This document shows positions 25,769 to 55,618 of a DNA stretch of 64,000 bases, in pieces; the first letter of the stretch is position 1, and each line of letters opens with the position of its first letter. Source of the DNA: Pseudomonadota bacterium (GTDB taxonomy: Bacteria; Pseudomonadota; Gammaproteobacteria; Burkholderiales; Burkholderiaceae_C); the NCBI GenBank assembly GCA_021799355.1, contig JAJZAQ010000004.1, forward strand, positions 1 through 64,000, written 5' to 3'. The notes under the pieces are model-generated. The model did not search any database and was not told the origin of the DNA. It saw nothing but the letters and a program-made list of their open reading frames with translations. The translations under genes were made by a program, and so were the position numbers.

Positions 25769-25977
25769 GACGACCCTCCCGGCCCGTGGCAGCGCCTGCG
25801 CCCGGGCCAAGCGGCTGACGTGTTGCGCTTGCACGCACGTCGTTGCCCCAGGCTTGGCGGGGCGACGACGATTCAGCCGCCCGATCAAAGCGCACACGGC
25901 GCGCCTTGCATCGCGCAATCCAATCATTTCCTCAACCCCAGGGCGCTCCTGCGCGCCAAGCAAGCAAACCGGAAAAC

Positions 25978-26688
25978 ATGATTGCGGGCATCGTCGGCAT
26001 GCTGGCAGCCGTGGTGATCTTTATTTTGATCGCCGTGTTTTCTGCCCAAAAAGCCAATCCCACAATCGCCTTGCCACTTGGCAATTTTTTGACGAGCCAA
26101 GGATTTTCCCGGATCGATGCATCGACCCCGCTGTTCAAGGAAATTTCCAATATCTTGTCCTCGACCACTGACGACACATTCATTTCACAGATTTACCAAA
26201 AGAAAACCGAAAACATTCTCGTCTGCTGGTGTACCAATAGTGACGGCAGCGACAACGCCATTCTTGGCGTGCTCCCCCAGGATTTCAGCACCACGCCATG
26301 GATGCTGCTTTCCTTGCCGACCATTGGTGGACTCAGCGCTGCATTGATCCGCAAATCCTTCGCGGCATTGGGCAAGAAGTCGAAACGGTCATCTTTTTCA
26401 AAGGCTGAAGTCGGCCTTTACGGCGAATCTATCGATTTGTACCTTCCCGAAAACGGAAAAATCCCCGCATTTCCAGAACGATTCATCAACGCACTGCCAC
26501 AATTCGGCAACATCCTGTTGCGATCGATGGGGAAGCTGATTTTGGTTGAAAGACTGTCCGTCTCACGCAGCGACTCGTGGGAAGACGAAGCAAAACATAT
26601 CCTGCAACTCACCCAAAAAATCAAATTTTCTTTGAGCACATCGTCGAGCCCTGCTGTTCAATGCCTTGGCGGCGACCAAAATTCCTGA
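25978..26688 (+). CDS. Hypothetical membrane-anchored protein
   Basis: MIAGIVGMLAAVVIFILIAVFSAQKANPT N-terminal TM, second hydrophobic segment (PWMLLSLPTIGGLSAALI); lower GC than neighbours; no family recognised. Confidence 0.6.
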   Translation: MIAGIVGMLAAVVIFILIAVFSAQKANPTIALPLGNFLTSQGFSRIDASTPLFKEISNILSSTTDDTFISQIYQKKTENILVCWCTNSDGSDNAILGVLPQDFSTTPWMLLSLPTIGGLSAALIRKSFAALGKKSKRSSFSKAEVGLYGESIDLYLPENGKIPAFPERFINALPQFGNILLRSMGKLILVERLSVSRSDSWEDEAKHILQLTQKIKFSLSTSSSPAVQCLGGDQNS

Positions 26689-26775
26689 TTTGCACCAACA
26701 ACCGAGTGTCAGTCGATTTTCAACACCGCCCCGGTGCATCCCCCTACAGCGCAAAGCACTCAGGGCGGCTAAAAT

Positions 26776-26791
26776 TTGTGCATCGCAACAA
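26776..26791. promoter_or_regulatory. Putative PhaR-type operator dyad at phaZ promoter
   Basis: TTGTGCATCGCAACAA (reverse complement TTGTTGCGATGCACAA), immediately after a TAAAAT -10-like box (26770-26775); 14/16 match to a site upstream of the phasin gene. Confidence 0.45.
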
Positions 26792-26811
26792 TCACCAAGT
26801 CGGAGTCGATC

Positions 26812-28152
26812 ATGGTGTATGACCTGTTTGAAACCCAGCGCGCGCTGATGCGTCCGTTGGCCGACTTTGCCGAGGCCGCCGCCAGGTTCTACGCCAACCC
26901 CGTGTGGCCGGCGGTGCCCAACAGCATCACGCAACGTGTCTCGGCCAGCTATGACCTGATGCACCGGTTGATCAAGGACTACGAAAAACCGCAGTTCGGC
27001 ATCAACGCCGTGACCATCCAGGGCAAGACCGTCGCCGTCCAGGAGCGGGTGGTGATGGAAAAGCCGTTTTGCCGCCTGCTGCGCTTCAAGCGTTTTTCCG
27101 ACGACGTCAGCCTGCTGGGCAAGCTCAAGGACGACCCCACGGTGCTGATCGTCGCCCCGCTGTCGGGCCACCACGCCACGCTGTTGCGCGACACCGTGCG
27201 CACCATGCTGCAGGACCACAAGGTGTTCATCACCGACTGGACCGACGCGCGCATGGTGCCGACGGAAAAAGGCGTGTTCAGCCTCGACGATTACGTCGCC
27301 TACATCCGCGAATTCATCACCGCCATCGGCCCGGACGTGCATGTGATGTCGGTGTGCCAGCCCACGGTGCCGGTGCTCGGCGCCATTTCGCTCATGGCCA
27401 GCGCGGGCGAAATCGCGCCGCGCAGCATGATCATGATGGGCGGGCCGATCGACGCGCGCAAATCGCCCACCGCGGTCAACAACCTGGCGATGAACAAGAG
27501 CTACGAATGGTTCGAAAACAACGTCATCTACCGTGTTCCCGCCAACTACCCCGGGGCAGGCCGGCGGGTGTATCCCGGGTTTTTGCAGCATTCGGGCTTC
27601 GTCGCCATGAACCCCGACCGTCACCTGACGTCGCACTATGACTACTTTCTCAATCTGATCCGCGGCGACAACGACGACGCCGAAGCGCACCGCCGGTTTT
27701 ACGACGAATACAACGCCGTGCTCGACATGGACGCCGCGTACTACCTCGATACCATCCGCGTCGTGTTCCAGGACTTCGCCCTGGTCAACGGCACGTGGCG
27801 GGTGGGCGGCGAATTGGTCCGGCCGCAGGACATCCGCCGCACCGCCCTGCTGACCATCGAGGGCGAGCTCGACGACATTTCCGGTGCCGGTCAAACCGAA
27901 GCGGCGCACGGCCTGTGCAGCGGCATCGCAGCCGCCAGCCGCCAGCACTACGTCGCCCTGGGGGCGGGGCATTACGGCATTTTCTCTGGCCGTCGCTGGC
28001 GCGAAAAGGTCTATCCGGTGGTGCGCGATTTCATCGCTGCGCACCCGCGTGGCGCCGTCGGCACTACGTCACGCAAGACCACACGGCCGCAGGCCGGCTC
28101 CAGCCAGCCGGCGGACTACTCCAGTCCTGCCGAAAGCGACGCGGCGCGCTGA
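26812..28152 (+). CDS. phaZ: Intracellular polyhydroxyalkanoate depolymerase
   Basis: MVYDLFETQRALMRPLADFAEAAARFY...PAVPNSITQRVSASYDLMHRL...; C-terminal ISGAGQTEAAHGLCSGI; PhaZ/PHB depolymerase pattern. Confidence 0.9.
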   Translation: MVYDLFETQRALMRPLADFAEAAARFYANPVWPAVPNSITQRVSASYDLMHRLIKDYEKPQFGINAVTIQGKTVAVQERVVMEKPFCRLLRFKRFSDDVSLLGKLKDDPTVLIVAPLSGHHATLLRDTVRTMLQDHKVFITDWTDARMVPTEKGVFSLDDYVAYIREFITAIGPDVHVMSVCQPTVPVLGAISLMASAGEIAPRSMIMMGGPIDARKSPTAVNNLAMNKSYEWFENNVIYRVPANYPGAGRRVYPGFLQHSGFVAMNPDRHLTSHYDYFLNLIRGDNDDAEAHRRFYDEYNAVLDMDAAYYLDTIRVVFQDFALVNGTWRVGGELVRPQDIRRTALLTIEGELDDISGAGQTEAAHGLCSGIAAASRQHYVALGAGHYGIFSGRRWREKVYPVVRDFIAAHPRGAVGTTSRKTTRPQAGSSQPADYSSPAESDAAR

Positions 28153-28170: not shown

Positions 28171-28899
28171 ATGTCGCTGCCCGCATCCCCCCCCTGCACG
28201 CCAGCACCCGCCGCGCCCACTGCCGACGGGTGCGGCGCGTCGCCGTCGTTGGCTGCGCAGATCGATGCATTGCTGCCACAAACCCAGTGCAAACGCTGCG
28301 GCTATGCCGACTGCGCGGCGTATGCCCAGGCCATTGCCAGCGGTCAGGCACAGATCAACCGCTGCCCGCCCGGCGGCGCGCAGGGGGTCGAACGTCTGGC
28401 CGCGCTGCTGCACCGCCCGGCGCTGCCGCTGGATCCACAGTGCGGCGCGGAAGGTCCGCGGCAGCTCGCCGTGATCGACCCCGGTCAATGCATCGGCTGT
28501 ACGCTGTGCATTCCGTCCTGCCCGGTGGACGCCATTGCCGGCGTCGCCAAGCGGATGCACACCGTCATCGGCACCTGGTGCACCGGCTGCGCGCTGTGTC
28601 TGCCCGTCTGCCCGGTCGACTGCATCCGCCTGAGCGCTTTGCCCGACCCTGCCGCGGCGGCGCGCACCGGCTGGGACGCCTGGAGCGCTGAACAGGCGGA
28701 CCAGGCGCGGCAGCGTTACGCGCGCCACCGCCAGCGGCAGACGGCGTCCGTCGCGCCAACCCCGGCCGCCGCCGCGGAGCCTACCGCCGCAGCGCTTGCC
28801 GCCGAACGCAAGGCTGCCGTGCTGCAAGCCGCCCGCGAGCGTGCGCGCTCGCGAGGGGCTGCCTCCGCCGGTGCACCACGTCCTCCCTCCACTGCGTAA
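28171..28899 (+). CDS. rnfB: RnfB-like ferredoxin: Fe-S domain plus two 4Fe-4S clusters
   Basis: [26 protein letters not shown]...[39 protein letters not shown]. Confidence 0.87.
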
Positions 28900-55472: not shown

Positions 55473-55500
55473 TTGCAATTCGGCGGAGCGGCTCTACAAT
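55473..55500 (+). promoter_or_regulatory. sigma70 promoter for phasin gene (TTGCAA-N16-TACAAT)
   Basis: TTGCAA 55473-55478, TACAAT 55495-55500. Confidence 0.6.
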
Positions 55501-55505
55501 ATGTT

Positions 55506-55520
55506 TTGTGCAATGCACAA
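55506..55520. promoter_or_regulatory. Perfect dyad operator TTGTGCA-A-TGCACAA just downstream of phasin -10
   Basis: 7-bp perfect inverted repeat with one central base, 5 bp after the -10. Confidence 0.6.
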
Positions 55521-55618
55521 CGAACCTGTGCAGAGCGTCATCGGCATGACACCGTTGCGGGTTCACAATGCGTAGGCTGCCGCCGGCAGCCGCCCCCTTC
55601 CCCTTCAGGAGAGACATC

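Follow-up and report, generated by a model that had tools for sequence, protein, structure and literature searches.

The window, i.e., the whole stretch of 64 kb that was analyzed, comes from a Thiomonas-like genome of 2.89 Mb, to which Thiomonas provides the closest named relatives, and it carries two genes of polyhydroxybutyrate (PHB) granule metabolism, phaZ and phaP (Table 1). Their products, an intracellular depolymerase recognized through PF06850 and TIGR01849 and a phasin recognized through PF09361, are those named in the original prediction. The product of the gene directly after phaZ (28171-28899) is an Fe-S protein in which FeS (PF04060) and 4Fe-4S domains were recognized, and the 281-aa frame that precedes phaZ (25843-26688) is without a Pfam match.

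Upstream of phaZ, positions 26770-26791 read TAAAAT-TTGTGCATCGCAACAA, followed by a gap of 20 bp to the ATG at 26812; the sequence, the coordinates, the TAAAAT box and the gap reported earlier all agreed upon rechecking, as did the identity of 14 of 16 bases between this site and one upstream of the phasin gene. The assignment of the phaZ site to the reverse strand, however, is without meaning, because the site is a degenerate palindrome. A good match to a −35 box was looked for at phaZ, and none was recognized.

In the phasin promoter, TTGCAA-16-TACAAT sits between two predicted operators, BS1 and BS2, the latter enclosing the exact palindrome TTGTGCAATGCACAA (at 55506), which occurs only once in the genome. 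Two operators are likewise found in 29 of 30 phasin promoters of the host's family, with a BS1-BS2 spacing of 55-60 bp. Separately, a second, diverged phasin gene (Phasin_2, E 9e-9) is preceded at about 50 bp by a PhaR-like site that carries a single mismatch (G000:C37:129287-129303; L006).

Table 1. Genes, promoter elements and predicted PhaR operators; positions refer to the window unless a prefix is given.
Feature	Position	Strand	Remarks
phaZ, intracellular PHB/PHA depolymerase, 446 aa	26812-28152	+	PF06850 E 2.9e-94; TIGR01849 E 1.6e-178
phaP, phasin, 186 aa	55619-56179	+	PF09361 E 2.4e-28; TIGR01841
phaZ −10-like box, TAAAAT	26770-26775	+	from sequence
Predicted PhaR operator of phaZ, TTTGTGCATCGCAACAA	26775-26791	.	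0 mismatches to YTKNTGCRNYGCANMAR
Palindromic core, TGCATCGCA	26779-26787		inside the phaZ operator
Predicted phasin operator BS1, TTGCTGCGACGCACAAA	55450-55466	.	immediately 5' of the −35 box; 0 mismatches to PhaR consensus
Phasin −35 box, TTGCAA	55473-55478	+	
Phasin −10 box, TACAAT	55495-55500	+	
Predicted phasin operator BS2, TTTGTGCAATGCACAAC	55505-55521	.	spans the expected transcription start; holds TTGTGCAATGCACAA
phaR	G000 C75:8372-8911	-	TIGR01848 equivalog, above cut-off

Consensus matches and conservation of the phaZ site

The pattern derived from the two promoters, TTGYTGCGAYGCACAA, has just two exact matches in the 2.89 Mb, at the phaZ and phasin sites, a rarity that is partly circular because the pattern was built from these very sites. 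When up to three mismatches are allowed, the earlier pattern occurs 5 times in the window versus a chance mean of 3.3, that is, without enrichment; taken by itself, the 14/16 match is therefore weak evidence. An independent test pattern is provided by the published PhaR consensus of R. eutropha, YTKNTGCRNYGCANMAR, which describes the operators at phaP1 and phaP3 (PMC12849132) and was used through its first 16 positions, YTKNTGCRNYGCANMA. This pattern occurs in the 64-kb window only at 26775, 55450 and 55505, where 0.017 matches are expected under a first-order Markov model, and all three matches sit in PHA promoters, once at phaZ and twice at the phasin gene; the source genome holds many other consensus matches, inside or overlapping reading frames. 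At phaZ, the palindromic TGC-R-N-Y-GCA core is flanked by a T four positions and an A one position beyond it, and the site has a TAAAAT box directly 5' and a PHB-granule gene downstream.

Across the host's family, 83 of 90 phaZ orthologues carry the core no more than 150 bp upstream of the start, whereas 63 other inverted repeats of the same shape, taken as control cores, reach at most 13/90 (mean 4%), so that the conservation exceeds chance. Moreover, at the columns that played no part in finding the sites, namely T(-3), R, Y and A(+11), the bases called for by the PhaR consensus are conserved at 99-100%, with flanks that are near random. Measured to the ATG, the core lies anywhere between -21 and -134. 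Relative to a TANNNT box, by contrast, two spacings account for 63 of 83 family members: the box ends 2-3 nt 5' of the core in 33/83 and overlaps it by 1 nt in 30/83. Loci from named genomes with enough upstream sequence carry the core in 68 of 78 cases, and those of Thiomonas and Thiomonas-like genomes (L303-L305) have it at -32, behind a TAAAAT box. Seven orthologues are without the standard core: in G054, G082 and G091, another reading frame closely precedes phaZ, suggesting an operon; in G053, G095 and G109, the core is changed by one base or in the spacer; and in the sequence upstream of phaZ in G079, the core was not found.

Two forms of the phaZ promoter are seen in the family (e.g., G137, G106 and G043), about 30 bp before the ATG. 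The first has a TAGAAT/TAAAAT-like box 2-3 nt ahead of the core, and the second a TATATT that overlaps the core, with TG one base upstream, resembling an extended −10 element.

PhaR and the predicted repression of phaZ

The TGC-R-N-Y-GCA core of the phaZ site fits the published operator of PhaR, a repressor that binds PHB granules and whose core has been defined by footprints or binding assays in R. eutropha (PMC12849132), H. seropedicae (PMC3206438), B. diazoefficiens (PMC6201568) and S. meliloti (PMC12542648). The genome encodes a single PhaR, a TIGR01848 equivalog with DNA-binding and PHB-accumulation domains (PF07879 and PF05233), on C75 downstream of phaC-phaA-phaB, and PhaR is present in 90 of 91 genomes of the host's family. 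Judged by sequence, the phaZ promoter almost certainly holds a PhaR docking site, and the 17-bp palindrome can with high confidence be regarded as a PhaR operator that would repress phaZ until PHB granules titrate PhaR. The original prediction had a single, unnamed regulator controlling both the granule coat protein and the depolymerase; this proposal gains from the identity of the motif with the PhaR operator, from the fact that the genome encodes phaR and from the strong conservation of the site at both promoters across the family, owing to which PhaR is very probably that regulator of both phaZ and the phasin gene.

In the absence of PHB, free PhaR would bind the phaZ palindrome, cover the −10 box and the transcription start and thereby block RNA polymerase, and the same blockade would apply at both phasin operators. 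Once PHB granules form, PhaR would be sequestered, and phasin and depolymerase would be de-repressed together, with the result that depolymerase would be produced only when the polymer is available. Binding, repression and release of PhaR by PHB are here proposed by analogy with studied relatives, and repression as the sign of control is suggested by the operator position, PhaR being able to activate as well. As for the co-timing of granule formation and breakdown that had been envisaged, the part that ties coat and depolymerase expression to the presence of granules is supported, whereas the part on breakdown timing is to be softened, since in S. meliloti the PhaZ level does not track phaZ promoter activity (PMC12542648); the timing of breakdown is probably set after transcription as well.

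That PhaR binds the phaZ site yet activates transcription, which is its reported effect on phaP3 in R. eutropha, would accord with its dual role in that organism (PMC12849132) and with consensus sites at some PhaR-activated genes of B. diazoefficiens (PMC6201568); activation is nevertheless unlikely, as the site overlaps the −10-like box or comes immediately after it, where a bound protein normally blocks RNA polymerase, and as PhaR represses the phaZ promoters that it binds in vitro in both B. diazoefficiens (PMC6201568) and S. meliloti (PMC12542648). It is highly improbable that another regulator sharing the PhaR consensus binds the palindrome, given that the consensus is that of PhaR, that the site lies within the gene set known for PhaR and that PhaR is nearly universal in the family. 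Chance similarity between the phaZ and phasin promoters, with which the missing enrichment of the earlier pattern at three mismatches would agree, is rejected as having a negligible probability by the three consensus matches, the family-wide conservation and the core-control and column tests. An mRNA leader hairpin that controls phaZ translation, to which the nearness of the repeat to the start codon in Thiomonas might point, is dismissed on geometry as scarcely conceivable, because the distance to the ATG ranges from 21 to 134 bp while the spacing from the −10-like box takes set values in most genomes, and because in many members the repeat overlaps the −10 box and would thus not be fully transcribed.

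The phaZ link in other families of the order

Among phaZ orthologues from outside the family but within the same order, the core is found in 6 of 32, a share that equals the best control core, versus 83 of 90 within the family (Fisher p=1e-14, uncorrected for shared ancestry). The looser consensus fit (at most 2 mismatches, within 150 bp) is seen at phaZ in 9/32 outside the family, and one genome of 6.8 Mb has a good phaZ site at -173; therefore, the presence of the site there is patchy rather than zero. Absence of PhaR is rejected as the cause of the missing sites, since all 35 outside-family genomes searched carry it, and a different operator sequence is likewise rejected, since 28 of 29 genomes there carry the core at their best phasin match. 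Consequently, PhaR and its operator are common to the order, with the phaZ link mostly confined to the family. On balance, PhaR control of phaZ may be read as a lineage-specific rewiring in the host's betaproteobacterial family, to which the Thiomonas clade may add the glyoxylate shunt via isocitrate lyase. The comparison of phasin and phaZ offers a clean case in which a regulator keeps one target and gains or loses another. Eight distant PhaZ paralogues that were examined held four cores, none of them near the consensus except perhaps one.

Known systems and further candidate targets

The phasin promoter of the window resembles phaP1 and phaP3 of R. eutropha, where BS1 likewise precedes the −35 box and BS2 spans the transcription start (PMC12849132), and its BS1 is identical to the phaP1 footprint sequence of B. 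diazoefficiens, TGCGACGCACAA (PMC6201568). The PhaR systems of S. meliloti and B. diazoefficiens, in the latter of which the phaZ1 site is given as CGCATCGCAGCA (PMC6201568), share the TGC-N3-GCA core found here but belong to alphaproteobacteria; PhaR control of phaZ in R. sphaeroides is known as cited in PMC6201568. Closer at hand, PhbF (PhaR) of H. seropedicae is betaproteobacterial and, according to the text of PMC3206438, recognizes the motif TG[N]TGC[N]3GCAA and represses its own gene as well as phaP1; its in vitro targets comprised eleven PHB-related promoters, and phaZ/phbZ is unnamed in the main text of that paper.

PhaR control of phaZ is thus proven in alphaproteobacteria and only speculated for Ralstonia, the control of depolymerases being called a "tempting speculation" for R. 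eutropha (PMC12849132). A search of open-access papers found no report of a PhaR-phaZ link in the host's family, and within those papers the novelty lies in the lineage-restricted wiring of phaZ, the operator type being already known. A sequence-level answer is given on PhaR control of betaproteobacterial PHB depolymerases, a matter of speculation in the 2025 Ralstonia work, and it predicts the lineages in which deletion of phaR should raise depolymerase expression, which is relevant to bioplastic strain design.

With regard to further targets, the predicted regulon does not seem to include phaC-A-B, as the 1.2 kb that precede the phaC start lack the TGC-N3-GCA core, the nearest one being at C75:14040. 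At phaR itself, a core that departs from the full consensus is located 39 bp upstream of the gene. By core count, autoregulation of phaR does not stand out, since 15 of 30 genomes have a core upstream of it, the same as for the best control core, although in roughly ten genomes the core stands immediately 3' of a TAGAAT-like box. A full PhaR consensus site is located about 60 bp before the isocitrate lyase gene (G000:C74:5640-5656; L062; L232-L234), and its core is kept in position by the two nearest genomes and not by 27 other family members; a family-wide site at this gene is consequently rejected (3/30, nearest genomes only). Similarly, a PhaR-like site occurs about 30 bp upstream of a GNAT acetyltransferase gene (G000:C10:4181-4197; L066). 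In the relative G033, where the DNA between the same two conserved stretches is not alignable, a consensus site lies between them (C4:1062111-1062127; L222).
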